Origin: Ruegeria sp. THAF33
GTDB lineage: Bacteria; Pseudomonadota; Alphaproteobacteria; Rhodobacterales; Rhodobacteraceae
NCBI RefSeq assembly: GCF_009363615.1
Contig: NZ_CP045385.1
Coordinates: forward strand, 124,001-188,000
Reading direction: 5' to 3'
DNA: 64,000 bases
Under the pieces are notes generated by a model. The model made no database searches. It saw only the letters and a list, made by a program, of their open reading frames with translations, and was not told the DNA's origin. Numbering within the stretch: the first letter of the stretch is position 1; every line of letters begins with the position of its first letter. This document shows positions 38,834 through 55,565 of the stretch, piece after piece. Made by a program: the position numbers and the translations under genes.

Positions 38834-39529
38834 TCAGACCCTTGCTTTTTCAAAGGCAGCCCAAGCGGTTTCAAATGCTTCGAAATCAAACGCGGGCTTG
38901 CGGGCTGCGTCCAGAACAATACGTTCTGTCGCCAAAAGCTTTTGGACTGCACCTTCCAATTGATCAACGACATCATTCGGTATGACCAATGCGCCATGAC
39001 GATCGGCGTGAACCAGATCACCGGGCTCAACTGTCAGACCAAAAATCGAAACTTGAGTGTCAATCTCGCGGACGTGGACGAAACCATGACTCGGTCCGAT
39101 GGAACCAGCGACAACCGGGAACCCTTGGGGCAAATCCCCGAGATCCCGCATGACACCGTTGGTCAGAGCGCCGGACATGCCGAAACCCTTGTGAACCGTC
39201 GTATTGATCTCACCCCAATAAGCGCCGATGCAATCTGGGTAATCCAGATCCTCGATCACGGCGATTGAAGGGCCGGGTGCTTCGGCCATGTACTTGTAAT
39301 AGGCCATACGTCGGGCTTTGATGATGTCGGGCGGCTCGGTCGGGGGATTGACCGCAGCAATTTTGGCGGTGCGCGCATAGCCGACTATGGCAGGCCCTTC
39401 GGGGGCCGAGCTTAGCATGGTGCCGCGCGTGAACCTGTCGAACCCGCGCCTGCCCTGTGCCACCTCGATGGCATTGCAGACAGTTGGCGTATCGACTTTA
39501 CGAAGCAAAGACAAAAGGGACGGTGTCAT
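38834..39529 (-). CDS. RraA family protein, probable 4-hydroxy-2-oxoacid aldolase/decarboxylase
   Basis: A 231-residue RraA/dimethylmenaquinone-methyltransferase-like protein. It has DTPTVCNAIE at the N-terminus, the metal-binding-site stretch GALTNGVMRDLGD, and the conserved VEPGDLVHADRHGALVIP. Family members with these features include 4-hydroxy-4-methyl-2-oxoglutarate aldolase and oxaloacetate decarboxylase. It is the last gene of the long LacI operon and overlaps the hydrolase gene by ATGA, so it may carry out the final C-C cleavage to central metabolites. Confidence 0.85.
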   Translation of the reverse strand: MTPSLLSLLRKVDTPTVCNAIEVAQGRRGFDRFTRGTMLSSAPEGPAIVGYARTAKIAAVNPPTEPPDIIKARRMAYYKYMAEAPGPSIAVIEDLDYPDCIGAYWGEINTTVHKGFGMSGALTNGVMRDLGDLPQGFPVVAGSIGPSHGFVHVREIDTQVSIFGLTVEPGDLVHADRHGALVIPNDVVDQLEGAVQKLLATERIVLDAARKPAFDFEAFETAWAAFEKARV

Positions 39530-40221
39530 GTGTCCTCCAGCCAGCGGGACAGCGCCGCTGTTGTTTTTTCAGGTTGTTCCAATGTCGGGAGATGGCCCGC
39601 GTCGCCGATGATCTCAAGCGCGCTTCGTGGCAGCAGGTCATGCATAAGTCGGTGGCGTTCAACTGGGCAAAGCCGGTCTTCATGCCCGCACAAGACCAGA
39701 GCCTTTCCGGTATAAGCTGTCAGTGTCTCGCTTTGGTCCGGTCGGTTCATAAGTGCCTTGGACTGACGTATGAAAACGTCAGGGCCCAGGTCGGTGGCCA
39801 TTGCCATGCACAGATCCAGAATCGCCCCCCGGTTCGGTCCGTCAGCTAGATAACCGGGCTTCATCTCGTCACGCATCACGGTCCTCAGCTGACCGTTGCG
39901 CACGACGGACATCTGCGGCGTACGACGCGCTTTTACCTCTGGCTTTTCCGCCAGTGGATTGGTGTCAAGCAAGGCCAGACGCGAAACACGTTCGGGGGCT
40001 TGGCGCGTTACCTCCATCGCCACGATACCCCCCATGGACAGCCCGGCCAGCGCGAAGACCGGCGGCGCATTCCCGAGAATATCCCGGGCCATGGCCTCTA
40101 TGCTGTCGTGATGAGACAACGGAAAGGTCATCACGGGCATTCTGCCCGACAGAGCATTGATCTGAGGGCCAAAAAGCCGGGCATCACACATCATGCCCGG
40201 CAACAAGATCAGAGGTTTCAT
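39526..40221 (-). CDS. Alpha/beta hydrolase
   Basis: A 231-residue alpha/beta hydrolase starting at ATG 40221, which overlaps the MetE-like stop by ATGA. It begins KPLILLPGMMCDARLF with the oxyanion region. The nucleophile elbow is GLSMGG near residue 83; the acid is likely in CGHEDRLCPVE and the catalytic His in GDAGHLPTLEQPE. Family members cleave esters, lactones or C-C bonds. In this operon an ester or lactone intermediate is plausible, but the substrate is unknown. Confidence 0.86.
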   Translation of the reverse strand: MKPLILLPGMMCDARLFGPQINALSGRMPVMTFPLSHHDSIEAMARDILGNAPPVFALAGLSMGGIVAMEVTRQAPERVSRLALLDTNPLAEKPEVKARRTPQMSVVRNGQLRTVMRDEMKPGYLADGPNRGAILDLCMAMATDLGPDVFIRQSKALMNRPDQSETLTAYTGKALVLCGHEDRLCPVERHRLMHDLLPRSALEIIGDAGHLPTLEQPEKTTAALSRWLEDT

Positions 40222-41342
40222 GCCGAAGCCAGCTTTGCCCCTTCGGACAACGCCGCCAGCTTGGCATAGGCGATCTGGGGATCGACGGCGCCGAAACCCG
40301 CAAAAGTGCCAAAGCCGCAATCGCTGCCCGCGATCACCCGGTCCGGTCCCACGATTTCCGTGAACCGGTCAATCCGTTGGGCCACAAGTTCGGGATGTTC
40401 GACGAAATTGGTCGTGGTGTCGACCACGCCGGGCACCAGAACCTTGTCTTCGGGAATCTCGGCCTTGCGGTCCCGGAAAACAGTCCATTCATGGGCATGC
40501 CGCGGATTGGACGTTTCGAACAGGACATAGCGCGACTTGGTCGCCATCAGGGTGCTGAAGACCTTGTCCATGGCGATGTCGCAGCAATGCGGGCCTTCGT
40601 AGTTGCCCCAGCAGATATGTACCCGTACCCGATCCTGCGGGACGTTCTGAAGCGCATGGTTCAGGGCCTCGACATGCATGTCGGCAATTTTGATGAACGC
40701 CTCATCCGACAGGTCGGTGAACAGCATGTGGCGCGACAGGGCAAGATCGGGGCAATCCAGTTGCAGGTCCAACCCGGCGGCGACGATGGTTTCGTATTCG
40801 TCCTTCATCGCGTCGGCCAACGCTGCCAGATAAGCCTCTCGCGTAGGGTAGAAATCATTCTGCAAAAACAACGAGATCACTCCGGGAGACGCGGCATTCA
40901 CGAAGCCGCGCTCGGCCCCGTGTCGAGACATGGCCGCCTTTAGGTTGGCGATGTCCTTTTGTAACTCGCCTTGCCCTTTTGATCGCACCTCACCCGTGCA
41001 CATCGGCCTTGCGTATTGTGGGGTACCGCCGTCATCGGCCAGTCTTTGCAGAAAGCCGGGAAACATCTTCAAGTCTGCCGGCGCGTTACGAGGGCTGTCG
41101 CCCGAAAACCCGGTGTAGCGATCTTTGACATAGGTCGCATAGGAGATTTTCGAAGTTTCGCCGTCGCTGACGATATCAACACCGGCTTCGACCTGTTTGC
41201 GCACCGTTTCGGCCACGGCGTTGGCCATGCAGGTATCAAAGGCGCCTGTGTCGTAAGGTTCGCCGTTTTCGCGGGCAAAAATAAAATCCACGACGTCCTG
41301 CGTTCGGGGCAGAGAGCCAACATGTGTTGTTTTTACGGTCAT
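40218..41342 (-). CDS. Cobalamin-independent methionine synthase (MetE C-terminal)-like protein
   Basis: A 374-residue protein equal to the catalytic barrel of MetE without its N-terminal domain. It opens THVGSLPR. The zinc ligands of MetE are all present: H242 and C244 in VHICWGNY, E276 in VLFETSNP, and C342 in AGSDCGFGT. Stand-alone proteins like this move methyl groups from small donors to thiols, or act on other substrates. In a catabolic operon next to a SAM-dependent methyltransferase and a cupin, it suggests a methylated substrate or methyl transfer step. It is not likely to be the main methionine synthase. Confidence 0.85.
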   Translation of the reverse strand: MTVKTTHVGSLPRTQDVVDFIFARENGEPYDTGAFDTCMANAVAETVRKQVEAGVDIVSDGETSKISYATYVKDRYTGFSGDSPRNAPADLKMFPGFLQRLADDGGTPQYARPMCTGEVRSKGQGELQKDIANLKAAMSRHGAERGFVNAASPGVISLFLQNDFYPTREAYLAALADAMKDEYETIVAAGLDLQLDCPDLALSRHMLFTDLSDEAFIKIADMHVEALNHALQNVPQDRVRVHICWGNYEGPHCCDIAMDKVFSTLMATKSRYVLFETSNPRHAHEWTVFRDRKAEIPEDKVLVPGVVDTTTNFVEHPELVAQRIDRFTEIVGPDRVIAGSDCGFGTFAGFGAVDPQIAYAKLAALSEGAKLASA

Positions 41343-41352
41343 GGGGACCTCC

Positions 41353-41955
41353 TTAAATTTTTCGTGCCATCAGGATCGTGTGGCTTTGGGCTTCTGGATC
41401 TTCGGCCAGGTATCCGGTCATTTGCAGCCCGTTTTTCTCAAGACATCCGGCGTAACCGGCCGGGGACAGCGACGCGTGGTAGACAAGCTCTGATCCCACC
41501 GTGCCGCTGACCTCTCCGGCACGAGGTCCGACGGTCAGCATGAGCATTCCCTTGGGCCGCAAATGGCGCGCCATCCGGGCGATACAGTCTTTCTGCTCGT
41601 CCGCTGTAAGGTGGAAAAAGCTGTTCCAGGCAATGATGCCGTCGAACTGTTGATCCAGTTCAAAACTCCGCATATCCGCGTTGCGCCAGTCGCCATCGGG
41701 CCAACGTTCGCGGGCAATGGCAAGCATGGCGTCGGAAAAATCGATACCCGTGACGTCAAACCCTTCGGCCATGAACCAGCGTGCGATGGGGTCGCCCGAG
41801 CCACAGCCCAGGTCCAATACGCGGTCACCCGGCTTCAGGCTGGCCGTGAAGCGCGCCAACCAGCGCGCTTCGAACAGGGCCTTGGAACGGCGCCTGTCAT
41901 ATTCGGTCGCCTGCCGTTCATAAACGGCGTGGGTGTCATTCGGGTCCGCGTTCAT
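41353..41955 (-). CDS. Class I SAM-dependent methyltransferase
   Basis: A 200-residue Rossmann methyltransferase. Motif I is VLDLGCGSGDPIARW near 47-61, the acidic loop is VTGIDFSDAM, motif II is FDGIIAWNSFFHL, and motif III is LRPKGMLMLTVGP. It overlaps the upstream cupin gene by ATGA and precedes the MetE-like gene by ten bases. The substrate is unknown; the operon position suggests modification of a pathway intermediate or product. Confidence 0.88.
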   Translation of the reverse strand: MNADPNDTHAVYERQATEYDRRRSKALFEARWLARFTASLKPGDRVLDLGCGSGDPIARWFMAEGFDVTGIDFSDAMLAIARERWPDGDWRNADMRSFELDQQFDGIIAWNSFFHLTADEQKDCIARMARHLRPKGMLMLTVGPRAGEVSGTVGSELVYHASLSPAGYAGCLEKNGLQMTGYLAEDPEAQSHTILMARKI

Positions 41956-42917
41956 CCTGTCCAGGTCGCTCCTGCCGGGTCATCGGTTGCGGTGATGCGG
42001 TACATGCCCGCCTGTCCGGTCATGGATGGCTGAACGCCATAGGTTTCGCCGGGAAGAACCAAGGCCGTGTCGCCCACCGAGATCGTAGTCTCGTACCCGT
42101 CAATCGAAACACGCCAGTGACCGCTGGCCGGCATCAGAACCACTGGTTTCTTGGCAGCGATCGGTTGGGTCACTGCGGACCCGCGCCCCAGAAAATCGAC
42201 CTCGAATCCGGGTTTGTCCTTGATCAACGCGTTTTCGCCAATCACCTTTGCGGGCTTTTTGGCCGACAACGCCATCAGATCCCAATACCGCGCAACGTAT
42301 TTGCCGACCACATCTTCGACAGGAACTTCGGGATAGCTTTTCAGCTGTTCTTCGGTCAGCAAAGGCATCGGGCGGACATTGTGCGGCAGTTCCTGGCCCA
42401 GTTTGGAGTCGTACAGAACGCCATTGTCGCCCAGCATCAGACCATGTGCCTGTGCATCTTCGATCACCTGAGGCGCCCAGGTGACGCCGCCACCCGCATC
42501 GTCTCCGCCCAGGATCGACATGATCATTCCGTAATCCTGGCCGACATTCTCAAAGCCCCGGAAAATACCCGTTGGAATGTTGAAGATGTCTCCTTCCTCG
42601 GCGATGAATTCCCCGGCCGTACCATAGCGGCCCCAGAAAAACCGCCAACGACCCTTGGCAACGAAAAAGACCTCGGCCGTGGTGTGGCTGTGCAGTGAGT
42701 TGCGGCATTTCGGCGGCTGCCCGGCCGCTCCGATGTTGAAACCGATCTTGTCCGTGATGTGGACATGCTGGTCCGGAGATTCCGAGACGCCGCCGCCGAT
42801 TATCGTGAAGTTCTCTTTCTGGTCGCTGCCGGGAGTATGGGCATCGATAAAAGCGGTTTTACAGGGTTGAAGCTCGCCATAGCGGACTATGCGGGAAGGG
42901 ATGGATGATTTTGTCAT
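41952..42917 (-). CDS. Cupin domain-containing protein
   Basis: A 321-residue protein with at least one clear cupin barrel: metal ligands in NSLHSHTTAEVFFVAKGRWRF and GDIFNIPTGIFRGFEN. A second barrel near the C-terminus has HWRVSIDGYETTISVGDTALVLPGE but lacks the His cluster. Such bicupins are often dioxygenases or isomerases of the gentisate/homogentisate shape. Here only one metal site is evident. A 191-base gap separates it from the upstream SnoaL-like gene, with no gene seen in it. Confidence 0.82.
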   Translation of the reverse strand: MTKSSIPSRIVRYGELQPCKTAFIDAHTPGSDQKENFTIIGGGVSESPDQHVHITDKIGFNIGAAGQPPKCRNSLHSHTTAEVFFVAKGRWRFFWGRYGTAGEFIAEEGDIFNIPTGIFRGFENVGQDYGMIMSILGGDDAGGGVTWAPQVIEDAQAHGLMLGDNGVLYDSKLGQELPHNVRPMPLLTEEQLKSYPEVPVEDVVGKYVARYWDLMALSAKKPAKVIGENALIKDKPGFEVDFLGRGSAVTQPIAAKKPVVLMPASGHWRVSIDGYETTISVGDTALVLPGETYGVQPSMTGQAGMYRITATDDPAGATWTG

Positions 42918-43108
42918 GACGTACGATCCGATTTAGCGTTTTTGGAAAGAAAGCTCGTGTGCCCAAATAGGACAGGCCCTTACTTTCCAGGCGGGCGCAG
43001 GTTCAGTCGCCGCGCCCTCAGGCTTTGACGGTACATATGGAAAAGCCGAACGGTCCGGGGCTCGGACAGACCGCCCGACAGGATGCGATATGAGACCGGG
43101 CGGCCCAC

Positions 43109-44098
43109 TCAGACCTCGCCGTTCTGCAACAGGATCTGCTTCCAGACCGAGGTTTCATCGAACAGGGTGTATTCACGGCGCAACTGCGGCTGCCCTGTAA
43201 TAAGCGCGCCGAATTCAGCGTGGCTGATCCCGAGGACATAAACCTGCGCACCACTCGGCGCGCCAAACACGCCCCAGCCGTCATGCTTGCCCCAAAGGCT
43301 CCAGCGAATTGCCGCACGCGGAGGCATATCGGGGTCATCTCGCCCGATCTGATGCTCGATCTTGAATTCCGCATTCGGAAAACTCGCCCGCAGACCCATC
43401 CAGAAGCGGTCGATGGCCTGCCAGCCATGCCCTGTTACGCCACCCACATATTCTGACTGAACAGCGCGGTCATATTCTGAACCGATCACGCCCATATCTG
43501 CGTTCATGATCCGCGTCAGAATGTCGGCGTAGCGCTGCCCCCATTCATTGTCATTCCCATGGCCTTTGTATGGTCCAGGCTGATCGATTTCGGGCGTCAG
43601 AGGTTTGACGCAGTTCTCTTTGCCGCCTTCCCGGGCAATCAGATCAGCGGCGTATTCTTTGGGATCCCAGCCCATCTGGCGCACAATCGCGCCCTGATCG
43701 CGGATCAGCCATTCATCGTTGATCTGATTGTCGATGGCGTGACAATCCGCAAGAATCCGGTAACTCAGCTTGGTGCCGGTGGGCTTGCCATAGACACCCT
43801 CGGCCAAATGCGTGGCCGTTGAAATGATCCGATGAGAGCTCAACATGCCCTCTTCCGGTGTGCCGGACCAAATCACGTCTTCGCCCAGCAGCTGCCGATC
43901 CGGAAACTCGGCAAGCGTTGCCATTGTGGCCCCAATGACATTCTGATTGCCCAAAACAACCGAACCAGGCGAACGGACGACGATGTCATCGCTGTAATAC
44001 TCATGCAGCGTGGCGATCCCCCGATCTTCCCAGATCTCTTTGGTGATGCCGATGATATAGTCCGGAAAATCCCGGAATTTCGGATCGAAGCCTTTCAT
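43109..44098 (-). CDS. SnoaL-like (NTF2 fold) protein, two-domain
   Basis: About 329 residues from the ATG at 44098, which overlaps the LacI stop by ATGA and has AAAGGA upstream. It seems to hold two NTF2/SnoaL-like halves: IATLHEYYSDDIVVRSPGSV in the first, and VTGHGWQAIDRFWMGLRASF with AAIRWSLWGKHDGWGVFG in the second. The fold occurs in polyketide cyclases, epimerases, hydrolases and dehydratases. It is the most diverged of the four such proteins in this region. No function can be assigned. Confidence 0.75.
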   Translation of the reverse strand: MKGFDPKFRDFPDYIIGITKEIWEDRGIATLHEYYSDDIVVRSPGSVVLGNQNVIGATMATLAEFPDRQLLGEDVIWSGTPEEGMLSSHRIISTATHLAEGVYGKPTGTKLSYRILADCHAIDNQINDEWLIRDQGAIVRQMGWDPKEYAADLIAREGGKENCVKPLTPEIDQPGPYKGHGNDNEWGQRYADILTRIMNADMGVIGSEYDRAVQSEYVGGVTGHGWQAIDRFWMGLRASFPNAEFKIEHQIGRDDPDMPPRAAIRWSLWGKHDGWGVFGAPSGAQVYVLGISHAEFGALITGQPQLRREYTLFDETSVWKQILLQNGEV

Positions 44099-45138
44099 GT
44101 CTCTGTCCTTTGTGGGGCCCACCCCTTTGGCAATCGGGCCGAGGTCCGCACAACCAGTGGTCCATCAATGGCCACTTTGCGCGGTTCGGCTTTCGCCGGG
44201 GTGTCGATATGTTCGAAAAGTGCGGCAACGGTTTCGGCTACCATAAGGTTGGCCCGCTGCCGGATCGTTGTCAAATTGTAAGCCGGCCAACCGGCCGGCG
44301 GCACGTCATCATAACCCACGACCGAGACATCCTCGGGGACGCGCAGGCCAAGTTCAAAACGGATCACATCCATCGCCGCCAATGCCATGTGATCATTGGC
44401 CACAAATACGGCATCCGGCCGTCGTTCAGGGGCGACATCGAACATCCGACGGGCTGCTGTACGGGCGTTTTCCGTGTGAAACTCCCCTACTTCATGAGCA
44501 AACAGTTCCTGCCCGGCCTCGGCCAGTGCGGCGCGATACCCGGCTTCGCGGTCCCGCTGCGTCGAGGCCCCTTGCCAACCTGCGATATAGGCAATCCGTT
44601 GGTGCCCACCGGCTAGCAGAAATTCCGCGACTTTGCGGCCCCCGGCATAGTTGTCGGACGTGACCGTGGTGATGCCCTCGATGTCCTGGCTGCGGTTGAA
44701 CAGCACCACTGGCACCCCGGCCTGTTGGCAGCGCATGGCGATATCCGACGACATGGGCACCGAGGCCAGGATGACGCCATCCACCTGATAATCAAGAATC
44801 TCTTCCATCACATCGTCGATGTTCCCGGCCGATCGTGAGGCCATGAAGATCAGCACGTGATAGCCTTGCTCCTGAAGGGCGTTGGACAGCTTCTCGAGCG
44901 CTTCCGGATAAAAATAGTTATCCAGGTAGCCTACCACCAAACCGATAATCCGGCTTTTCCCGGACACCATGGCGCGGGCCAGAACGTTTGGACGATAGCC
45001 CAGTTCAGCAGCGGCTTTGCGCACCTTCTCTTCGGTCTTTTTGCTGACGGACGCGCCGGGCGTGAATACGCGGCTGACGGCGGACTGGCTGACACCAGCC
45101 AGTTGGGCGACCTGAAGGGATGTTACTTTTTCGGCCAT
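44095..45138 (-). CDS. LacI family transcriptional regulator
   Basis: A 347-residue LacI repressor starting at ATG 45138, which shares one base with the SDR stop (TGATG). The N-terminal headpiece is VTSLQVAQLAGVSQSAVSRV, with hinge GYRPNVLARAMVSG. A periplasmic-binding-like sugar sensor follows (IIGLVVGYLDNYFYPE, VGYDDVPPAGWP). It is encoded in the middle of the operon it most likely represses. Two 20-bp palindromes with a central CpG at 53552 and 53606 are fitting operators. The effector is probably the imported compound or a derivative. Confidence 0.92.
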   Translation of the reverse strand: MAEKVTSLQVAQLAGVSQSAVSRVFTPGASVSKKTEEKVRKAAAELGYRPNVLARAMVSGKSRIIGLVVGYLDNYFYPEALEKLSNALQEQGYHVLIFMASRSAGNIDDVMEEILDYQVDGVILASVPMSSDIAMRCQQAGVPVVLFNRSQDIEGITTVTSDNYAGGRKVAEFLLAGGHQRIAYIAGWQGASTQRDREAGYRAALAEAGQELFAHEVGEFHTENARTAARRMFDVAPERRPDAVFVANDHMALAAMDVIRFELGLRVPEDVSVVGYDDVPPAGWPAYNLTTIRQRANLMVAETVAALFEHIDTPAKAEPRKVAIDGPLVVRTSARLPKGWAPQRTET

Positions 45139-45902
45139 CAATCTGCTGTCCAACCCCCGTCGATAAGCATTGACGTGCCGGTAACCAGTGCAGAGGCGTC
45201 TGACGCGAGATAACGCACCGCGCCCATGATGTCTTCGACCTCTCCGACCCGGTCCAACTTGATCTTTTCCATGATCCACGCGGCGCGTTCAGGATTGTCG
45301 AAAGTGGATTGGGTCAGGGGCGTTTTGATGAAAGTCGGGCAGACAGTGTTGATCCGAATGCCCTGTTTGCCCCATTCGATGGCCATGGATTTGACCATGC
45401 CCTCAAGCCCATGTTTGGTCGCACAATAAAGCGCCCGGTCGACACCGCCGACATGCCCCATCTGGCTGGAGATGTGGATGATCGATCCCGGCTTTCCTGC
45501 CAAGATCAAAGCGCGGGCGGCGTAGGCCGATAAGAAGTAGGCCGAACGCAAATTGACGTTGGTGACAACATCAAAGTCATCGGGCGTGGTTTCGATGGCC
45601 GCGCTGTGGCGCGCCACGCCCGCTGAATTCACCACGATATCGAAAGTGCGGTGATCGAAAAGCTGTTTCAGGGCATCCAGATCACCCTGATCCATCACAA
45701 GCGCTTCGGCCGACCAGCCGTGATCTCGCAAGGCGGAGACGGTGTCGTTCAACCGGTCCGCCCCTCTGGCCGCACAAACAACATGCGCGCCTGCCTCGGC
45801 CAAAGCCACCGCACAACCCTGACCGATACCCGACGAGGCTCCGGTAACGAGGGCTGATTTTCCGTTCAGAGAAAACGAAGGGGTGCGTGGCAATTCCGTC
45901 AT
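45138..45902 (-). CDS. SDR family NAD(P)-dependent oxidoreductase
   Basis: A 254-residue short-chain dehydrogenase. The cofactor motif is GASSGIGQG near 20-28, the NNAG-equivalent is VNSAGV, the active site is S in IIHISSQMG with YCATKHG (Y-x3-K), and it ends with DGGWTAD. The acidic/basic residue after beta-2 (CAARGADR) suggests NADP(H) may be preferred. It overlaps both neighbours by one base. It likely oxidises or reduces a hydroxyl of the imported compound before or after the HpsN-like dehydrogenase. Confidence 0.92.
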   Translation of the reverse strand: MTELPRTPSFSLNGKSALVTGASSGIGQGCAVALAEAGAHVVCAARGADRLNDTVSALRDHGWSAEALVMDQGDLDALKQLFDHRTFDIVVNSAGVARHSAAIETTPDDFDVVTNVNLRSAYFLSAYAARALILAGKPGSIIHISSQMGHVGGVDRALYCATKHGLEGMVKSMAIEWGKQGIRINTVCPTFIKTPLTQSTFDNPERAAWIMEKIKLDRVGEVEDIMGAVRYLASDASALVTGTSMLIDGGWTAD

Positions 45903-46954
45903 CAGCGCATTCCATCCGGTATTTCAATACGGCCCAAATTGCGGGCCTTGTTGAATTCCCGCAGGCGGGCAAAGACGTCAACGCCAAGCTGCCGGTAGGC
46001 ATCCAGCAAATCAACCAGCACCCAGTTTTCCCGGATCCTGCCGTTTTCCAAACGCCAGAAATCGAGGCTGCGCATGGTGATCTTCTTGCCTGACGGAGCG
46101 ATGCCCATCCAACCATCGTCTGTGACGGTCTGGATCATGTTGGGCCAGCCCGTCACAGCTGCATATTCCCCGTCACCGAAGAAGTGATAGGTGATGTCGT
46201 CCACGAACTGCCCGCGATCCGGCATACCGTTCAGAAATGGGATCTGATGCCAATTTCGGAACCCCGCGTACCCGCGCCCGGTGCCGATGCCCGAAGGGCC
46301 GTACCAGTTCATGCGCGGGTGCCAGAACCGTTCCATCTCCATCACTTCGGGGCCGCCTTGGGACGGGTGTTTCTTGAGATGCTCCAGCATGTCGATGATA
46401 TGCTGGCAGGTCTGTTTGCCCTTGGCTTCATCATAAGGGCCGGGGACAAACCCGTCCTGGGTGGCAGGGCCGGGGACATGCCATTCACGGCCCAGACTTG
46501 GCGCCATCGGCCAGGCACTCGCCTGCATCATGACTTCGGGGATGTCCCAAAGGGCCTGCATCTCGACGATCTTGCCGTTTTCGAAGCGGTAAAATTCATG
46601 AAACCGCATCGTGACTTGATGACCCGTCGGCGGGATGTCCAGCCAGGGGCCGGTGAAAACACCGGTGTAATACCCACCACATCCGACCCAATCTGCGCCG
46701 AACTCATCCGGGCCGGCCATGACGATGTAATCCCGTCGTTCAAGATCGGGCCAGGCCGCCAGTAAGTCTTTGTAGCCAGTGTCATAGAACGCATCACTGC
46801 CGACGCTGTCCCCAAAGGGATGACACAGACGGAACACGGCATCCGGTGACGTGACCTCCGCCAAAGCCCGGCGTACGCTGGCCTCATCGAAATCGTACAT
46901 CGCAGCCCTGAGCGGTTCGATCAGGGCCTTGTGATGTGTGTGTTTGTCACTCAT
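45902..46954 (-). CDS. SnoaL-like (NTF2 fold) protein, two-domain
   Basis: A 350-residue protein with two SnoaL-like halves. The first includes [22 protein letters not shown]; the second has [10 protein letters not shown] and [20 protein letters not shown], ending QLGVDVF. The second-half pattern recurs in the proteins at 53674 (IWWGPEGIG, NWIFIDLLHF) and 48294 ([19 protein letters not shown]), so these are paralogues. It overlaps the HpsN-like gene by ATGA. Annotated relatives are called ester cyclases or polyketide cyclases, but no polyketide genes are present, so a small-molecule epimerase, dehydratase or hydrolase role is more likely. Confidence 0.8.
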
Positions 46955-48293: not shown

Positions 48294-48824
48294 TCAGTTT
48301 TCCGGCCGTGGCGGAGTCTTCTCGCCGCGGTCAAATGCTTCCCAGCCTTCGCTGTTGAATAGGTCCACGCCCAGCTGAGCCGCAACGTGGGCAAAGTCGA
48401 CATTTACCCAGTTGTCGACAATCTTGCCGTCGACCACTTTCCAGAAGTCCATGTACCTGATTTCGACACGCTTGCCTGTGGGGGCAATGCCCAGAAATTC
48501 GCCGGAATGCGTGGCTTCCTGGCGGCCGAAGGCGGCGGCCCATTCACCCATGTAAAGGCGCGCTTCGTCAACGCAGACCTTATCCGAAAACGCGGCTTGA
48601 AACGGGCGCTGCCAGTTATCCTGAAATTCCTGCAGGCCGGTCTTGGTGCCGCAGCCCTGATTGCCCATCCAGCGAAAACCTTGGGCGAAGAATTCACCGA
48701 TGTCATCAATGCGGTGATCATTCAGACCATCAACCATCGTTTCGATCACGCGGCGCGTGTCTTCCGTCTTGCTCATGTCCGTGTCGCGGGTCAGAACCGC
48801 TTGTTCGGGACGGGAACCTTTCAT
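48294..48824 (-). CDS. SnoaL-like (NTF2 fold) protein, single-domain
   Basis: A 176-residue protein from ATG 48824 with AAAGGA seven bases upstream; a second ATG at 48776 is possible. One NTF2-type domain: a helical start ([20 protein letters not shown]), then [20 protein letters not shown] and [17 protein letters not shown]. It aligns with the C-terminal half of the two-domain paralogues. It separates the transporter genes from the catabolic genes of the operon, with a 127-base gap to the permease. Confidence 0.82.
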
Positions 48825-48951: not shown

Positions 48952-50106
48952 TCAGCCTTTCACCGCCCCGGCTGTCAGACCGCTGACAATCTGGCGCTGG
49001 AAAATCAGCACGAGGAAGATCAGAGGCGCGGTGATCGATACGGCAGCGGCAACCGCAACGACCTGATCGGTTGTCGTCGTCTCGCGATTGAACATGCCGA
49101 CGATGGCGGGAACCATGGTCTGGTTCTGCGCATCAAGCAGCAGCGCGGTGACCAGAAAATCGTTGTACGCCAGCAAGAAGCTGAACAGTCCTGTGGTGAT
49201 CACGCCTGGCCACATCACCGGCATGATGACACGGCGGAAGGCCTGAAAGTGGCTGCACCCATCCACGCGGGCGGCCTCATCCAGCTCGGCCGGGATGTTC
49301 TGGAAGAACGAACGCAGCATCCAGATTGTGAAGGGCTGGTTGATCGCAACCAGAACAGCAATTACCGCAAAAGGCTTGCCGTACAAGGTTGGTGCGTTTT
49401 CACCCAAGATCGGGCTGAGCCATTCGGCCGAGTTGATGAACACCGGCAGATAGCCTGCTACCAGAACCGAATGCGGCAATGCCCGGAACACCAGTGCGAC
49501 GATCAGGATCCAGAAGGCCAACGTTGATCCTGACCGCGCCAGACCGTAGCCCGCCAAAGTGCCCACGGTCAGCGACACTGTCACCACGCCCGTCGTTACG
49601 ATCAGCGAGTTCTTGAAGTTGTTTGAAAAACCCCGGTCGATCCAGACGGTTTTGTAATGCTCGGTCGTCAGACCAAGCACATCCCGTCCCAGTGGGCCAA
49701 ACAGCGGGTTCAACACGTTCAGGATTGCAGGCAGGACCACGAAGAACACCAGCAGGAAACCCACCAGCAAGGACAGCACACCGATCAGCCAGCCGAACCA
49801 TTCCTGACCGGGCTTGGTGTAGGACTTTATCATCGAAGGCAGTGTTTTGGTAGCAGCGAAGATCGTGCCCCAGATAACCGCGATGCCCAGAATGATATCC
49901 AGCAGCGACAAGCCCTTTCCGACGCTCAGCGTGGCCGGCCCGAAGATCACGTTCAGCGCGTTGCTGTCGAACGCATCGACGGGTGACTTGAAGCTCATGA
50001 CCACGATCCAGAAGATCGGAAAGGCCGCGATCAGGCACCAGAGCGCAAGGAAGATGTTCGAGGTCAACCGCAGGCTTAAGGGCTGGCGAAGCGCACGCGA
50101 GGACAT
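48952..50106 (-). CDS. Carbohydrate-type ABC transporter permease (MalG-like) with insertion
   Basis: A 384-residue inner-membrane permease; MalG-like proteins are usually near 280. The extra ~100 residues lie between TM1 and the rest and include two more hydrophobic stretches (LLDIILGIAVIWGTIFAAT and SLLVGFLLVFFVVLPAI). The EAA loop ELDEAARVDGCSHFQAFRRV is intact near the C-terminus. The ATG at 50106 has GGAGG upstream and starts one base after the previous stop. It forms the channel with the permease at 50108. Confidence 0.9.
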   Translation of the reverse strand: MSSRALRQPLSLRLTSNIFLALWCLIAAFPIFWIVVMSFKSPVDAFDSNALNVIFGPATLSVGKGLSLLDIILGIAVIWGTIFAATKTLPSMIKSYTKPGQEWFGWLIGVLSLLVGFLLVFFVVLPAILNVLNPLFGPLGRDVLGLTTEHYKTVWIDRGFSNNFKNSLIVTTGVVTVSLTVGTLAGYGLARSGSTLAFWILIVALVFRALPHSVLVAGYLPVFINSAEWLSPILGENAPTLYGKPFAVIAVLVAINQPFTIWMLRSFFQNIPAELDEAARVDGCSHFQAFRRVIMPVMWPGVITTGLFSFLLAYNDFLVTALLLDAQNQTMVPAIVGMFNRETTTTDQVVAVAAAVSITAPLIFLVLIFQRQIVSGLTAGAVKG

Positions 50107-50107
50107 G

Positions 50108-51130
50108 TCAGTGACCTCCTTTATGGTCGCGCCATGTACGGCGCAGCGGAAGGATAAGCAGGATGACGACACCGATCATGGTCAGCATCGAGTTGGCGGA
50201 CGCCCGGCTGATCGACCGGTTGCCGGCCTGATCCGGCGTCAGGTAGTCGAAGGTCAGCCACTGTAGCGAGATGACGTAGCCCTGGCTCGAAAAACCGACG
50301 ATCTCTTCGAACACGCGGTAGCTGTCCATCAGGTGGATCATCGACACGAAAATGATCAGTGGCATCAGGTGTGGAATGACGATGTATTTCAGGCGCTGCC
50401 AACGGGTCGCACCGTCAATCACGGCACTTTCAAGACTGTCCTGATTGACCGTTTGCAGCCCGGCGTAGAAGACGATCGCTGCAAAGGGTGCCACGTGCCA
50501 GACGCGGTAGAGCATCATCAGTATTTCGATGGTCCAGGCTTGGGCGAAAAGGGCGATGTCCCGGTTCAGCCACCATTCCATCATTGCGGTCAGGATGCCG
50601 TCGCCCCGGAAAAGCCAGTTGATCGACAGCACGCCGATCACGGGTGTGATGATGAAGGGCAGCAAGGACACAAAGATCACCGGCCCGCGGATGGACCGCG
50701 CCGCGTTGTTGATCAGTATTGCGATCCCAAGCCCGCACCCGACCACCAGCGGCAGAGTGATCAATGTGAAGGTCAGGGTGAACCGAAGCGCTTTCCAGAA
50801 GTTGATCGTAGACAGCACATGCCAACTGCCGTCGCTTATGGCGCGCCATGCGCGTTCAGGCTCCAATACGTTGCGATAGCTTTGCAAGCCGACATATTGG
50901 GTTTGGGTAATGACCTCGCCATGTTCGTCAAGTTTTGGCTGCGAAACCATCTCGGTCACGCAGGTCTGCGTCAGGAAACCGGGCGTGCAGGTTTCCTTTT
51001 CGACCGTCTCATAGATCGGCTGAGTAACGTAAAAACTCTGCTTGAACACGCTGACCAGAGGAAACGCGATAAAGAGAAGCATCATAAAGACAGAGGGGCC
51101 GACAAATGCGGCAAATGTCCGGAAATTCAT
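50108..51130 (-). CDS. Carbohydrate-type ABC transporter permease (MalF-like)
   Basis: A 340-residue inner-membrane protein with about six transmembrane segments. The EAA loop is LESAVIDGATRWQRLKYIVI. The loop after TM1 is long and carries two cysteines (TCTPGFLTQTCV) that could form a disulfide in the periplasm. It partners the MalG-like permease. It lies 66 bases after the binding-protein gene. Confidence 0.9.
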   Translation of the reverse strand: MNFRTFAAFVGPSVFMMLLFIAFPLVSVFKQSFYVTQPIYETVEKETCTPGFLTQTCVTEMVSQPKLDEHGEVITQTQYVGLQSYRNVLEPERAWRAISDGSWHVLSTINFWKALRFTLTFTLITLPLVVGCGLGIAILINNAARSIRGPVIFVSLLPFIITPVIGVLSINWLFRGDGILTAMMEWWLNRDIALFAQAWTIEILMMLYRVWHVAPFAAIVFYAGLQTVNQDSLESAVIDGATRWQRLKYIVIPHLMPLIIFVSMIHLMDSYRVFEEIVGFSSQGYVISLQWLTFDYLTPDQAGNRSISRASANSMLTMIGVVILLILPLRRTWRDHKGGH

Positions 51131-51196: not shown

Positions 51197-52408
51197 TCAG
51201 TTGCTGATCAGACCTGCTTCTTTCGCGGCAGTGATGTAATCTGCCTCGATATCCGCCAGCGTTGTCTGAGCATCCTTGGCGCCGGTCAGGTAGTCGGCAA
51301 GACCGTTGCCCAAGGCGGTGTGCATGATGCCCATCGGGCCAGATGCCGGGTATGCCTTTGCGCCCGCTTCAGCCGAAGCGGCTGCTCCTGCCGCCAAAGC
51401 ACCCGCTGAATAGGCAGGGCTCAGCCAAACAGCGACGTCATTGTTTGCGCTGACCATTTCGCCGTCCATGCCCTCAAGCGCGACGCGGAATGCGGCGTCG
51501 GCCTCTTCGTCGCTCATGTTCGAAGCGAGAACGATGCCATCCCACCAGATGGTGGTTGCCGGCGCTGCCGAACCCATAGGAGCGGCTGCCATGGTGACTT
51601 TGCCGACGACCTGGCTTTCGGCCTCATCATTCATGGCGGCTGCACGGCTGGCCCAAAGGTTCGCCATGGCGATCTTGCCCTGTTGGAACTGTTGCTGCAC
51701 GTATGTCGAGTCGGAAACCAGATATTCCGGATCCATGTACTCGGTCATGGCTTTCAGTGTTTCCAGCGCAGCGACGCCCTGCTCGTTGTTGATCGTTGGA
51801 ACGTTGCCGTCGCCAAAGAACGAGCCGCCTTCGCCAAGGTACATGTTGACGAACTCCTGGCCGAGGTTCCAACCGGTCTTGAACGTTCCCCCGATCGGAT
51901 AGTCCATGACGCCGGCTTCTTTGATCTTGGCGGCCGCTGCCAGGACGTCATCATAGGTTTTTGGTTCTTCGATGCCCAGTTCAGCCAGAACATCATCGCG
52001 ATACATCAGGTGCTGCGCATTCACCATCATTGCAATGGCCATGGTCTTGCCATCAACCTTGATCAACTGGTTGGGAAGCAGGTCCTGGCCGTATTTTTCG
52101 ACCAGATCATCCAGCGGACGGATCGTGCCTGCGTTCAGCAACGGCACCAGGGTCGCGTTTGAAACACCGCCGATCTGATAAAGCGCGGGATCTGCAGCAA
52201 ATGCTTCGGGCTGCTTTTCGCGGAATTCCTGATCCAGCGATGCGCTGAAATTGCCGCATTCTGCCATCGCATCGGTGACGGCTTTCCACGCTTCAAATCC
52301 GGCGGACAGTGATTTTAGCGGCACTTCGTTTTCAAAGGCGCAATCTGCCCACGCGCCGGTGGCGGCGATGGACATGGCACCGGCCATGAGGATCGTCTTG
52401 AGTTTCAT
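51197..52408 (-). CDS. ABC transporter extracellular solute-binding protein (carbohydrate type)
   Basis: A 403-residue family 1 binding protein. The signal peptide covers residues 1-21 with cleavage after TGAWA. The mature protein has typical elements such as MANLWASRAAAMNDEAESQV and the closing GNGLADYLTGAKDAQTTLAD. It lies second in the importer order ATPase, binding protein, permease, permease. The fold usually binds sugars, polyols or glycerol-phosphate-like molecules; the ligand is unknown. Confidence 0.9.
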   Translation of the reverse strand: MKLKTILMAGAMSIAATGAWADCAFENEVPLKSLSAGFEAWKAVTDAMAECGNFSASLDQEFREKQPEAFAADPALYQIGGVSNATLVPLLNAGTIRPLDDLVEKYGQDLLPNQLIKVDGKTMAIAMMVNAQHLMYRDDVLAELGIEEPKTYDDVLAAAAKIKEAGVMDYPIGGTFKTGWNLGQEFVNMYLGEGGSFFGDGNVPTINNEQGVAALETLKAMTEYMDPEYLVSDSTYVQQQFQQGKIAMANLWASRAAAMNDEAESQVVGKVTMAAAPMGSAAPATTIWWDGIVLASNMSDEEADAAFRVALEGMDGEMVSANNDVAVWLSPAYSAGALAAGAAASAEAGAKAYPASGPMGIMHTALGNGLADYLTGAKDAQTTLADIEADYITAAKEAGLISN

Positions 52409-52429
52409 AGGTTTCTCCCTGTCAGGATC

Positions 52430-52452
52430 GGTCCGTCGTCGACGTCCGGACC
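52430..52452 (-). other. Hairpin between ATPase and binding-protein genes
   Basis: GGTCCG and CGGACC flank an 11-nt loop in the 75-base gap before the binding-protein gene. It may protect or set the level of the highly needed binding-protein transcript. Confidence 0.4.
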
Positions 52453-52483
52453 GGTGTTATGCCCTTGCGGGCCGTTTGTGGGG

Positions 52484-53530
52484 TTAGCCCCCGATCCGCG
52501 CACCGCTTCCAGCTTCGAAGAGGTGACAGATATCCGTCGGCACCGAGAACGAGACCGTTTCGCCAATCTCGGCGCGGAATGCTTTGTCTGCTTTCACCGA
52601 AACCAGAGCTCCGCCGACCCGAACCGAGATCATGGTCGCGTCGCCCAGCAGTTCCAGCGTATAGATCGGAGCGGTGATCTGACCTTTGCCATCGGCAAGG
52701 CTGGCATCTTCGGCCCTGAAACCCAGTGTCATTGGGCCATCCGGTGCATCCACCGCAATTTCGACATGTTCGGCGCGGAATATTCCGCCCGCCACTTCGC
52801 CGTCCATCAAATTCATGGCGGGTGAACCGATGAAGCTGGCGACGAACGTATTCGCGGGACGGTCATAAATTTCGGTCGGGCTTCCGACCTGCTGAACCAC
52901 GCCCTGTTTCATCACGACGACGCGGTCCGCAAGGGTCATGGCCTCGATCTGGTCGTGGGTGACGTAAATGGTGGTGACAGCCAGCTCATGGCTCAGGTTC
53001 TTGATCTGGGCTCGTGTGGAAACCCGCAGCTTGGCGTCCAGATTGGACAACGGCTCGTCCATCAGGAACACGTTGGGTTCGCGCACGATGGCACGTGCTA
53101 GTGCCACACGCTGTCTCTGTCCACCCGACAACTCGGCTGGCTTGCGATGCAGGAAATCGTCCAGTTCAACCATGGCACTGGCGCGGCGCACTTTCTCGTC
53201 GTGTGTTGCCGGGTCGATACCACGCACTTTCAGCGGAAAGCGGATGTTCTCGTAAACGTTCATGTTGGGATACAGAGCGTAGCTTTGGAACACCATCGCC
53301 ACGTCACGGTCCTTGGGTTCCAGATCATTGACCACGTTGCCGTCGACAAGGATTTCGCCTTCCGTCACGTCTTCAAGGCCGGCGATCATGCGCATTGTGG
53401 TTGTCTTGCCGCAGCCTGATGGGCCGAGCAGCACCAGAAACTCACGATCTGCAATCGTGAGGTCGAAATTGTGAACCCCAACGAATGAGCCCCATCGCTT
53501 GCCGACGTTCCGCAATTGAATTTCCGCCAT
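52484..53530 (-). CDS. ABC transporter ATP-binding protein (UgpC/MsmK-like)
   Basis: A 348-residue sugar-type ABC ATPase. Walker A is GPSGCGKTT, the signature is ELSGGQRQRVALARA, Walker B is NVFLMDEPLSNL, the switch is VTHDQIEA, and the C-terminal TOBE regulatory domain includes LGFRAEDASLAD. The ATG at 53530 has AGGGGG upstream; the frame extends further but would cross the operator. It is the first gene of the fifteen-gene operon, with a LacI-type palindrome 22 bases before its start. Confidence 0.93.
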   Translation of the reverse strand: MAEIQLRNVGKRWGSFVGVHNFDLTIADREFLVLLGPSGCGKTTTMRMIAGLEDVTEGEILVDGNVVNDLEPKDRDVAMVFQSYALYPNMNVYENIRFPLKVRGIDPATHDEKVRRASAMVELDDFLHRKPAELSGGQRQRVALARAIVREPNVFLMDEPLSNLDAKLRVSTRAQIKNLSHELAVTTIYVTHDQIEAMTLADRVVVMKQGVVQQVGSPTEIYDRPANTFVASFIGSPAMNLMDGEVAGGIFRAEHVEIAVDAPDGPMTLGFRAEDASLADGKGQITAPIYTLELLGDATMISVRVGGALVSVKADKAFRAEIGETVSFSVPTDICHLFEAGSGARIGG

Positions 53531-53551: not shown

Positions 53552-53571
53552 TTTTGCATACGTTTGCAAAA
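53552..53571. promoter_or_regulatory. LacI-type operator 1
   Basis: TTTTGCATACGTTTGCAAAA differs from the perfect palindrome at 53606 by one base. It has the central CpG typical of LacI-family operators. It lies just upstream of the ATPase gene. Confidence 0.75.
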
Positions 53572-53605: not shown

Positions 53606-53625
53606 TTTTGCATACGTATGCAAAA
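53606..53625. promoter_or_regulatory. LacI-type operator 2 (perfect 20-bp palindrome)
   Basis: TTTTGCATACGTATGCAAAA is a perfect 20-bp palindrome. Its centre is 54 bp from that of operator 1. It lies between the divergent ATPase and SnoaL-like genes, 48 bases before the latter's chosen start, so both transcription units can be repressed together. Confidence 0.8.
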
Positions 53626-53673: not shown

Positions 53674-54696
53674 ATGACTACAATGGTAAATACCGTGAAC
53701 TTTCAGACAGAAAAAAAACTAGTCTCTGCGTTTCACACCGCATTGGAATCCGCCGCAGTGACGGAAACTCCGAAGGTGATGAGCCAATTTTGCGCTCCGG
53801 ATTCGAGGTGGCGCGGCTTTCATCCGTTCAACGAAATCAACGGCGCCGAACAGGTTGCCCGGAAATTCTGGCAGCCGCTGAAGGGCAGCCTTGCTCATTT
53901 GCAGAACCGAGTGGATATTCTGTTTGCGGGGCAAAACTCGTTGCGGAAAGAAACCGACGTTTGGGTTGTCGCCATGGGCCATCTGGTGGGGCTGTTCGAC
54001 CGACCGTGGTTGGGTATTCGCCCGACCGGCAAGATGGCGTTCCTGCGATATTGCGCGTTCTACAAGGTGGCTGGTGGCAGAATTGTCGAAACAGCGATGT
54101 ATTTCGACATCCCGCACTTGATGGTCCAGGCTGGCCAGAATCCGTTCCCCCCGCAGACCGCGGCACATCTGGTTCAGCCCGGACCAAGGACCCATGATGG
54201 TTTGGTGCTTGGTGAGCAGCCCGCAGACGAAGGCGAAAAAACGCTGGCGGTCATCAACGCGATGATCGCGGATCTGGGCCGTTGGGACAGCGGACTGTCG
54301 CTGGAAGAAGAGTTGGCGCGCACGTGGCACCAGGACATGATCTGGTGGGGCCCCGAAGGAATTGGCGCGACCTACACGATCGAACGCTATGCCAGGCAAC
54401 ACTCCGGATCGTTTCGCGCCGCCTTCACGGACCGGTCAAAGACCAATCACGTCTGCCGTCTGGCCGAAGGGCATTACGGTGGCTTCTTTGGATGGCCCAA
54501 TTTTACTGCCACGCCCACAGGGGGTTTCATGGGGATGCCAGCCACCGGAAAACCCGGCGAATTCAGGGTGATCGATATCTATCGCCGCGTCGAAGACAAG
54601 CTGGCCGAAAACTGGATCTTCATCGACTTGCTGCATTTTTGGAAAGGGCAGGGTGTGGATATTCTGGCGCGCACCACCGGGATTGAAGCATCATGA
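53674..54696 (+). CDS. SnoaL-like (NTF2 fold) protein, two-domain
   Basis: About 340 residues from ATG 53674 (a second ATG at 53683). The frame is open back to a TTG at 53608, but that lies inside the operator. Two SnoaL-like halves: LRYCAFYKVAGGRIVETAMYFDI in the first, then IWWGPEGIG, FMGMPATGKPGEFRVIDIY and NWIFIDLL in the second. It is a close paralogue of the protein at 45902. It is coupled by ATGA to the amidohydrolase gene. No strong ribosome site is seen, so the exact start is uncertain. Confidence 0.78.
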   Translation: MTTMVNTVNFQTEKKLVSAFHTALESAAVTETPKVMSQFCAPDSRWRGFHPFNEINGAEQVARKFWQPLKGSLAHLQNRVDILFAGQNSLRKETDVWVVAMGHLVGLFDRPWLGIRPTGKMAFLRYCAFYKVAGGRIVETAMYFDIPHLMVQAGQNPFPPQTAAHLVQPGPRTHDGLVLGEQPADEGEKTLAVINAMIADLGRWDSGLSLEEELARTWHQDMIWWGPEGIGATYTIERYARQHSGSFRAAFTDRSKTNHVCRLAEGHYGGFFGWPNFTATPTGGFMGMPATGKPGEFRVIDIYRRVEDKLAENWIFIDLLHFWKGQGVDILARTTGIEAS

Positions 54697-55565
54697 GGAT
54701 AGATGCGCATCACCACCTGTGGGACCTTTCGGCCGTGCACTACCCCTGGCTTACAGAGAAAGGTATCGTTCGGTTTTTCGGCGATCCGTCTTCCATCCAG
54801 CGGGACTATTTGCTCCCGGAGTTTCGCGCAGACGCCGAAGCCATGGGGTTCGGCGCTTCGGTTCACATTCAGGTCGGCGCCGCTGAGCCCTGGGCCGAGG
54901 CGCAGTGGGTACAATCCGTTGCCGACCAGTTCCCTGACTGGCCGTTGGTGCAGGTGGCATTCTGCGATCTGACCTCGGATGATCTGGATGCACAGCTCGA
55001 CCGTCTTCAAACCCTGCCTTCGGTGCGCGGCGTTCGTCAGATTATTGGCCGCGCTCCGGGTGAAGACGCCTCAACTGGCACGAACGCGTTGCTTGAAGAC
55101 CCAAAGTTCTTGACCGGCCTGAAGCAACTGGGCGCGCGCGGTCTTTCCTTTGATCTTCAGCTGCTGCCAGAGCTGATGGGTCAAACCGCGAATATCCTTG
55201 CACAGGCCCCGGAGACCCGGATCGCTCTTTGCCACGCAGGGTCGCCATATGACCGGACTCCGCAAGGGTTGCGACGGTGGGCAGATGAATTGACGGCCTT
55301 GTCAAACCTGCCACAAGTCTTTTGCAAACTCTCCGGCCTGGGAATGTTCGACCACGATTGGAATGCTGAGAGCGTCTCGCCGATCGTTTCAACCTGCCTG
55401 TCCCAATTTGGCGCCGATCGCTGCATGTTCGGGTCGAATTTCCCGGTCGACAGCCTTACCTCGACCTACAAGGAAACCGTTTCCCGGCATGAGACGCTCA
55501 TCCCGGGGGCGATGCTGGACGACGTCTTTCGCGGCACGACAGAACGTTTCTATCGCATTGAATAG
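54693..55565 (+). CDS. Amidohydrolase family protein, lactonase-like
   Basis: A 290-residue TIM-barrel hydrolase of the amidohydrolase 2 group that contains L-fuconolactonase and 2-pyrone-4,6-dicarboxylate lactonase. The N-terminal metal motif is DAHHHLWD. Further conserved elements are VRGVRQIIGRAPGE, ALCHAGSPYD and the late MFGSNFPVDS carrying the catalytic aspartate. A lactone-opening step fits beside dehydrogenases that could produce a lactone. It is the second gene of the divergent unit controlled by the LacI-type palindromes. Confidence 0.88.
   Translation: MRIDAHHHLWDLSAVHYPWLTEKGIVRFFGDPSSIQRDYLLPEFRADAEAMGFGASVHIQVGAAEPWAEAQWVQSVADQFPDWPLVQVAFCDLTSDDLDAQLDRLQTLPSVRGVRQIIGRAPGEDASTGTNALLEDPKFLTGLKQLGARGLSFDLQLLPELMGQTANILAQAPETRIALCHAGSPYDRTPQGLRRWADELTALSNLPQVFCKLSGLGMFDHDWNAESVSPIVSTCLSQFGADRCMFGSNFPVDSLTSTYKETVSRHETLIPGAMLDDVFRGTTERFYRIE

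Follow-up and report, generated by a model that had tools for sequence, protein, structure and literature searches.

A LacI-linked locus of seventeen genes in Ruegeria sp. THAF33: a candidate catabolic regulon with a third motif class of the HisD fold

Introduction

Some non-phosphorylating sugar-acid routes end in an HpcH/HpaI aldolase of the GarL type, and the lower pathway of protocatechuate and gallate breakdown uses LigI and LigK. For enzymes of the HisD fold, published passages on HpsN (PMC11382572) describe a motif, G-R-Y-A/S-H, that ends in the sulfonate-binding residue His126, and a set of catalytic residues, Glu318, His319, Asp352 and Lys353, and give G-S-A-P-L as the corresponding motif of histidinol dehydrogenase, HisD. 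Here we describe a locus of Ruegeria sp. THAF33 in which a HisD-fold dehydrogenase stands among seventeen genes that also encode a LacI-family regulator, a sugar-type importer, a cupin and an RraA-family protein; it lies in a stretch of 64,000 nucleotides (the window), which sits within an 811-kb contig of a 4.63-Mb genome. On balance, we think it probable that the seventeen genes are one LacI-controlled catabolic regulon, serving import, the trimming of substituents, a kinase-free oxidative core and aldol cleavage. The original prediction for this DNA held that the gene set matches no known pathway, and in the open-licence literature we found no description of such a cluster.

Results

Organization of the locus

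Fifteen minus-strand genes (38834-53530) and two divergent plus-strand genes (53683-55565) lie on either side of a control region of 152 bp, which is common to both groups, as had been proposed, and which holds two LacI-type palindromes. Family scans of the Pfam type and comparison of the open frames recovered all seventeen genes with the ends and families first assigned to them (Table 1). The minus-strand junctions had been described as mostly overlapping by 1-4 bases, which is too strong: seven of the fourteen do so, but at the other seven the genes are separated by 1, 10, 11, 66, 75, about 175 and 191 bases, counted from the likeliest starts after comparison with the annotation of Ruegeria sp. 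AD91A. The minus-strand array is thus compact, yet has three gaps of more than 70 bases; the divergent pair, SnoaL341 and the amidohydrolase, overlap by 4 bases. Of the named records, a plasmid of Ruegeria sp. AD91A is nearest; it is 90.5% identical across the whole 16.7-kb block and is annotated with the same seventeen genes and the same right-hand neighbours.

Motif of the HisD-fold dehydrogenase

The best solved relatives of the window enzyme are HpsN (E 1.5e-113) and (R)-2,3-dihydroxypropane-1-sulfonate (DHPS) dehydrogenase (E 4.4e-109). In an alignment to 8v35, the enzyme is identical to HpsN at the positions of Glu318, His319, Asp352 and Lys353 (HpsN numbering), and the zinc and catalytic residues, so far as the HpsN passages (PMC11382572) name them, are kept. 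The position of His126, in contrast, is occupied by methionine, and the motif reads G-K-F-P-M, which is neither that of HpsN nor the G-S-A-P-L of HisD. All 111 matches at 64% identity or more read G-K-[FY]-P-[ML] (G-K-F-P-M in 104, G-K-Y-P-L in five and G-K-Y-P-M in two), and six further matches at 45-47% identity read G-R-[YF]-P-[LI] or are partial. The same genome carries a separate G-R-Y-S-H copy, 46% identical to the window enzyme, and a more distant copy at 37%, whose matched stretch contains one stop codon. Judged by its sequence, the window enzyme differs at the recognition site from both functionally known relatives and represents a third motif class of the HisD fold. The earlier label 'HpsN-like' therefore stands for the fold but not for the substrate, the sulfonate-recognition motif being absent. 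Identity as histidinol dehydrogenase was likewise rejected, in spite of an NCBIfam score above cut-off, since the G-S-A-P-L motif is missing.

The gene was found at E ≤ 1e-150 in 39 of 289 genomes of the class. A second HisD-fold copy, at 44-46%, occurs in L168, L173 and L199. Four loci whose fetched stretch has no cupin (L208, L212, L217 and L223) carry HisD-class genes near enolase-superfamily proteins, and L208 and L217 also have HpcH/HpaI.

Paired palindromes in the control region

Two palindromes, TTGCATACGTWTGCAA, lie 54 bp apart between the starts of the ATPase and SnoaL341 genes. Within the window, the pattern was matched twice at up to three mismatches; the mean for shuffled sequences was 0.19, yet two of 100 shuffles reached two or more matches. 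At up to two mismatches, these two places alone matched in the whole 4.63-Mb genome, and a control pattern read backwards gave one match. In three sets of related loci, the same threshold gave 35 sites in 23 of 40 loci, 37 in 21 of 80 and 14 in nine of 19, compared with 0.2, 0.8 and 0.2, respectively, for shuffled half-sites (five shuffles per locus). In the 40-locus set, 44 of the 52 sites found at up to three mismatches lie no more than 300 bp upstream of the ATPase gene; the spacing of close pairs is 54-56 bp in 16 of 19 cases. There is thus strong evidence that a paired putative operator is conserved among the relatives, and the local LacI protein, which has both the LacI helix-turn-helix (PF00356) and a sugar-binding-type domain (PF13377), would be its presumed reader. 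Three palindromes each, at up to two mismatches, were seen in L168 and L173.

Recurring core and less constant members

Relatives were compared in two sets of loci: 40 SnoaL350 loci, hand-picked and mostly the better matches from 118 matching genomes (of 295 family genomes sampled), several of them cut by contig or fetch ends; and 80 cupin loci, the best by cupin identity among at least 575 cupin relatives in species-level genomes, of which 63 are full-length. Genes were located by tblastn with the window proteins and by longest open frames, an approach that may overlook short genes or those of weak similarity; contig ends truncate many of the loci, and some genomes are counted under two locus identifiers.

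Around SnoaL350, the 40 loci hold SnoaL329 in 35, the ATPase, the binding protein and both permeases in 34 each, LacI in 32, the short-chain dehydrogenase/reductase (SDR) in 31, the cupin in 30, HisD in 28, SnoaL176 and SnoaL341 in 24 each, MetE in 23, the alpha/beta-hydrolase in 20, RraA in 19, the methyltransferase in seven and the amidohydrolase in six. The 63 full-length cupin loci hold LacI in 61, HisD in 60, SDR and SnoaL329 in 55 each, permease 2 in 53, the alpha/beta-hydrolase in 52, the ATPase in 51, RraA and permease 1 in 49 each, MetE in 46, the binding protein, SnoaL176 and SnoaL350 in 45 each and the methyltransferase in 16; the counts for SnoaL341 (three) and the amidohydrolase (none) are uninformative here because these genes mostly lie beyond the 10-kb flank. 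SnoaL and MetE-like genes are not part of every locus: of the 63, eight lack any SnoaL gene, and Stappia loci L158, L160 and L161 have HisD, LacI, SDR, cupin, alpha/beta-hydrolase and RraA with neither SnoaL nor MetE in the fetched stretch, which argues that the core does not need them. By these counts, the recurring core is the HisD-fold dehydrogenase, SDR, cupin, alpha/beta-hydrolase and RraA aldolase, with the SnoaL proteins, MetE-like barrel and methyltransferase as its less constant companions.

The gene set recurs in Rhodobacteraceae and other Alphaproteobacteria, and partly in Vibrio and a haloarchaeon. In Ensifer adhaerens L081 the core is present with no MetE in the stretch; seven loci (L044, L051, L057, L058, L060, L061 and L064) combine the importer with between one and three SnoaL genes and have neither HisD nor cupin in the stretch, and six of them have a LysR-type gene, the exception being the shared cluster of L057. 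Vibrio pelagius L080 has the importer and four SnoaL genes; its sarcosine oxidase genes, beside the SnoaL genes, were set aside as a probable separate module, presumably one for glycine betaine, whose usual gene pattern they resemble. In Halobellus limi L079, five annotated ester cyclases adjoin a MetE-like gene. Two loci from genomes of 1.4 and 1.6 Mb, with a locus G+C content (GC) of 30-31%, carry HisD (74%), MetE-like and SnoaL genes and a distant cupin (31%). A member of the GMC-type oxidoreductase family lies inside the cluster in nine loci (L040, L056, L069, L073, L150, L152, L159, L176 and L189), with PF00732 confirmed in L159 only.

Aldolase step

Among the 116 loci that hold both cupin and HisD, RraA alone is present in 72, HpcH/HpaI alone in seven, both in three and neither in 34; PF03328 (HpcH/HpaI) was confirmed in eight proteins (L105, L106, L108, L109, L112, L113, L185 and L199). 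Because HpcH/HpaI stands in for RraA in some relatives, the last step is probably an aldol cleavage, as had been proposed, and that one aldolase family is replaced there by another, unrelated one supports a 4-hydroxy-2-oxo acid as the compound that is cleaved, with release of pyruvate as the likely reaction. The RraA protein weakly matches the structure of 4-carboxy-4-hydroxy-2-oxoadipate aldolase (E 0.0023), and the NCBIfam aldolase models score it far below cut-off.

SnoaL-like proteins, methyl handling and the amidohydrolase

All four SnoaL-like proteins score above the Pfam PF07366 cut-off of 28.4 bits, which agrees with their predicted family. The zinc ligands of MetE are His, Cys, Glu and Cys, and the MetE-like barrel has the same putative ligands, H242, C244, E276 and C342, at 90% or more in 32 sequences. 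Methionine synthase proper was rejected, the best NCBIfam equivalog score being 91.8 bits against a cut-off of 406. The MetE-like gene is found in 81 of the 116 cupin and HisD loci, and 34 of the 116 have none of a MetE-like, URO-D or homocysteine S-methyltransferase gene. In L185 a URO-D protein is present where the MetE-like gene is missing, and in L216, which has no cupin, a homocysteine S-methyltransferase lies beside HisD and SDR; these possible stand-ins, single cases both, hint at methyl handling and do not amount to a rule. The suggested methyl handling thus holds as a lead, the zinc ligands being kept, but not as a fixed feature, the gene being inconstant. The lactonase-like amidohydrolase belongs to its predicted family, PF04909, but, with six of 40 loci, is an accessory gene rather than a constant of the pathway.

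Cupin, alpha/beta-hydrolase and SDR

The cupin has a complete motif 1 (H76, H78 and E82) and R120 in all 48 sequences compared. Its profile links weakly to quercetin dioxygenase (2.3e-6, C half) and to acireductone and 3-hydroxyanthranilate dioxygenases (0.001 each, N half), among many other cupins, and the predicted structure (mean predicted local distance difference test, pLDDT, 65.1; predicted template modelling score, pTM, 0.67) is too low in confidence to lean on. For the alpha/beta-hydrolase, PcaD-type NCBIfam models score below cut-off, as does the KduD model for the SDR (204.4 bits; cut-off 338.85).

Other settings of these enzymes were also seen. In L112 (8758-15246), an ATPase, a distant cupin, an HpcH/HpaI aldolase, an alpha/beta-hydrolase and three tetronate genes, of which OtnK and OtnC exceed their NCBIfam cut-offs and OtnI does not, form one row. 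This row, as judged from its gene content, is a second pathway built on the trio of cupin, hydrolase and aldolase. In L115 (8524-13892), a cupin 68-69% identical to that of the window, with no HisD or RraA in the stretch, lies in a row with a protein like ectoine EutA (145 bits; cut-off 318), a diaminopropionate ammonia-lyase-like protein, an M24-like protein (assigned by eye) and a zinc alcohol dehydrogenase.

Flanking genes

To the right of the unit, on the minus strand (55664-60101), are a malonyltransferase-like gene (AD91A annotation; no Pfam match), an E1-type alpha/beta dehydrogenase and an acyl-CoA dehydrogenase. These neighbours are not conserved alongside the unit: genes of the FabD-like, E1-type and acyl-CoA dehydrogenase kinds were found in zero, one and zero of the 40 loci and, likewise, in zero, one and zero of the 80. 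The left neighbour (35092-38553) belongs to the indolepyruvate ferredoxin oxidoreductase family, according to the AD91A annotation.

Table 1. Features of the locus, in window coordinates. ABC, ATP-binding cassette; SAM, S-adenosylmethionine.
Feature	Position	Strand	Evidence
RraA-family protein, proposed pyruvate-releasing aldolase	38834..39529	-	PF03737 64.5 bits
Alpha/beta-hydrolase (ABH), PcaD-like: lactonase, esterase or C-C hydrolase	39526..40221	-	PF12697 46 bits
MetE-like zinc barrel, 374 aa, without N-terminal MetE domain	40218..41342	-	PF01717 48.8 bits
Class I SAM methyltransferase (MT), accessory	41353..41955	-	PF13649 72.9 bits
Bicupin-type core enzyme	41952..42917	-	PF07883 34.5 bits
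Double-domain SnoaL-like protein SnoaL329	43109..44098	-	PF07366 47.6 bits
LacI-family regulator; AD91A start is upstream TTG at 45141	44095..45138	-	PF00356 49.5, PF13377 108.8 bits
SDR dehydrogenase, KduD-like	45138..45902	-	PF13561 191.4 bits
Double-domain SnoaL-like protein SnoaL350	45902..46954	-	PF07366 95.9 bits
HisD-fold dehydrogenase, third motif class	46951..48282	-	PF00815 436.9 bits; motif G-K-F-P-M
Single-domain SnoaL-like protein SnoaL176; open frame to 48824	48294..48776	-	PF07366 78.1 bits
ABC permease, sugar type	48952..50106	-	PF00528 72.3 bits
ABC permease, sugar type	50108..51130	-	PF00528 29.8 bits, cut-off 26.4
Extracellular solute-binding protein	51197..52408	-	PF01547 79.2 bits
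ABC ATPase, MalK/UgpC type; start per AD91A, open frame to 53584	52484..53530	-	PF00005 118.8 bits
LacI-type palindrome TTGCATACGTTTGCAA, distal putative operator	53554..53569		1 mismatch to TTGCATACGTATGCAA
LacI-type palindrome TTGCATACGTATGCAA, perfect	53608..53623		0 mismatches
Double-domain SnoaL-like protein SnoaL341, divergent	53683..54696	+	PF07366 70.8 bits
Lactonase-like amidohydrolase (Amidohydro_2), accessory	54693..55565	+	PF04909 118.8 bits

Discussion

The findings support the LacI-linked catabolic unit that had been proposed, and the following reactions, their order, the repression and the kind of substrate are what we infer from them. The sugar-type ABC importer would take up a decorated compound resembling a polyol, sugar or cyclitol, whose substituents may be trimmed or remodelled by the SnoaL-type proteins, the amidohydrolase, the MetE-like barrel and the methyltransferase. 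The HisD-fold enzyme would oxidise to COOH a CH2OH group whose neighbour is a chelating OH or NH2. The SDR would yield a lactone or a ketone, which the cupin and the alpha/beta-hydrolase may open, rearrange or dehydrate; a 4-hydroxy-2-oxo acid would then be cleaved to pyruvate and a second carbonyl compound by RraA or, in relatives, by HpcH/HpaI. When no inducer is present, the LacI protein would keep both promoters shut through the paired palindromes. Family scans found no kinase and no IlvD/enolase-type dehydratase among the seventeen proteins; the lack of a kinase, together with the terminal pyruvate aldolase, suggests that the core is a non-phosphorylating oxidative route. The sequence of steps first proposed (lactone formation, ring opening, rearrangement, methyl handling, aldol cleavage) is not established; the Stappia loci show the core with neither SnoaL nor MetE-like genes in the stretch.

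Several observations weigh against a single regulon with this chemistry. At up to two mismatches, 59 of the 80 named loci have no palindrome, although in many the control region falls outside the flank, and LysR-type variants such as L058 keep the palindrome with no lacI in the stretch, so that palindrome and local regulator are not strictly linked. NCBIfam TIGR00069 scores the HisD-fold enzyme as histidinol dehydrogenase (419.2 bits against a cut-off of 243.8). HisD-class relatives at 64-70% identity also adjoin amidases, enolase-superfamily proteins and a 2-hydroxyacid dehydrogenase, and the subfamily may therefore serve several substrates that carry CH2OH beside OH or NH2. The cupin has no motif-2 His, with Arg120 in its place, and so departs from the two-motif metal site of a cupin dioxygenase. 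In 34 of the 116 cupin and HisD loci neither aldolase is seen in the stretch, some of these being truncated. Characterised RraA-fold aldolases for 4-hydroxy-4-methyl-2-oxoglutarate and 4-carboxy-4-hydroxy-2-oxoadipate (HMG/CHA aldolases) carry the motif D-x20-R-D, whereas the RraA protein has Glu at the Asp position, its motif being E107-x20-R128-D129 in all 26 sequences.

A sugar- or polyol-like compound is the likeliest substrate for the regulon. Its breakdown through an acid sugar is an account that we hold tentatively: the SDR would form a lactone, the hydrolase would open it, the HisD-fold enzyme would oxidise the CH2OH at the far end to COOH, dehydration would fall to the cupin or a SnoaL protein, and the aldolase would release pyruvate. 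The importer is of the sugar type; in L160 a binding protein of family 7 (DctP-type) of the tripartite ATP-independent periplasmic (TRAP) transporters precedes the bare core; the OtnK and OtnC tetronate genes share a row with the distant cupin-HpaI-hydrolase set in L112; and enolase-superfamily genes lie beside the HisD class in four of 14 loci without a cupin, compared with one of 116 with one. Those four cases are few, however, with L208 and L217 coming from one genus and the gene in L223 lying 7 kb away. This route also leaves the SnoaL expansion and the MetE-like gene unexplained, and we know of no cupin that acts as an acid-sugar dehydratase.

The boldest candidate, which we judge unlikely, is the full breakdown of mycosporine-like amino acids or deoxygadusol. 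In deoxygadusol, a CH2OH group is attached to a carbinol carbon of a ring that also contains a methoxylated beta-diketone, and acetylacetone dioxygenase is a precedent for cleavage of a beta-diketone by a cupin. On paper, if this CH2OH is oxidised to COOH and the diketone is cleaved oxidatively, losing its methyl group, the product is 4-carboxy-4-hydroxy-2-oxoadipate, a known substrate of RraA-family aldolases. The SnoaL proteins would release the amino acids, the HisD-fold enzyme would act on the tertiary carbinol, the cupin would open the cyclic diketone as a dioxygenase, the hydrolase would free the oxoadipate and RraA would split it to pyruvate and oxaloacetate; the loci in V. pelagius L080 and Rhodobacteraceae that have importer and SnoaL genes but no core would belong to partial degraders. 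The weak cupin links to acireductone, 3-hydroxyanthranilate and quercetin dioxygenases, and the cluster in the two low-GC loci from genomes of 1.4-1.6 Mb, are consistent with such a route. Vibrio harveyi hydrolyses shinorine and porphyra-334 to mycosporine-glycine, according to part of a review (PMC3083659); the Vibrio locus compared here, however, is that of V. pelagius. The route is a proposal without direct evidence: it leaves the SDR and MetE-like steps unneeded or unplaced, the cupin has no motif-2 His, members also come from soil, sludge and lake sources, and, in the portions of the open-licence literature covered, no mycosporine catabolic genes were found.

That the substrate is nitrogenous, an amino-alcohol or an amide on which the HisD-fold enzyme would act as HisD acts on histidinol, seems to us very unlikely. 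HisD chemistry does act on a 1,2-amino alcohol, an amidase (PF01425) lies inside the unit in L168 and L199, with a similar one in L173, and a CN_hydrolase lies near the core in L106, but amidases occur in only three of 80 loci and family scans found no transaminase or deaminase among the seventeen proteins. A DHPS pathway with the dehydrogenase as HpsN, to which the best solved relatives might point, was rejected as scarcely credible, because the His126 motif is missing from all 111 close matches, the genome has its separate G-R-Y-S-H copy and no sulfolyase family was detected among the seventeen proteins by the family scans.

We therefore return to the LacI-controlled oxidative unit, which we take to be a real and widespread catabolic regulon: a known kind of system in a new, apparently undescribed combination of genes. 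The presence of relatives in two loci of about 30% GC in genomes of 1.4-1.6 Mb suggests a substrate worth keeping for streamlined marine bacteria. Identification of the substrate would assign a widespread route of import and oxidation, add a third specificity to those of a textbook enzyme fold, and end the annotation of such genes as histidinol dehydrogenase, methionine synthase and ester cyclase; the mycosporine route, if true, would account for what becomes of a major class of sunscreens made by algae.

Among known systems, the locus resembles the GarL-type sugar-acid routes in its classes of dehydrogenase, hydrolase and pyruvate aldolase, in LacI control and in the sugar-type importer, but it has no known acid-sugar dehydratase and has instead a HisD-fold oxidation and SnoaL and MetE-like genes. 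With the lower pathway of protocatechuate and gallate it shares an Amidohydro_2-type hydrolase and an RraA-family aldolase; it lacks an aromatic dioxygenase, however, and the amidohydrolase is present in only six of 40 loci. Its oxidative enzymes resemble those of the hps cluster of DHPS degradation in Cupriavidus pinatubonensis, which, in the published passages on HpsN (PMC11382572), has a HisD-fold zinc dehydrogenase with the same catalytic residues and an adjoining SDR, HpsO, of family PF13561. The window enzyme differs from HpsN in having Met for the sulfonate-recognition His, and the seventeen genes include neither a sulfolyase nor an HpsP-type zinc alcohol dehydrogenase, but add cupin, SnoaL, MetE-like and aldolase genes to the shared pair of dehydrogenases.

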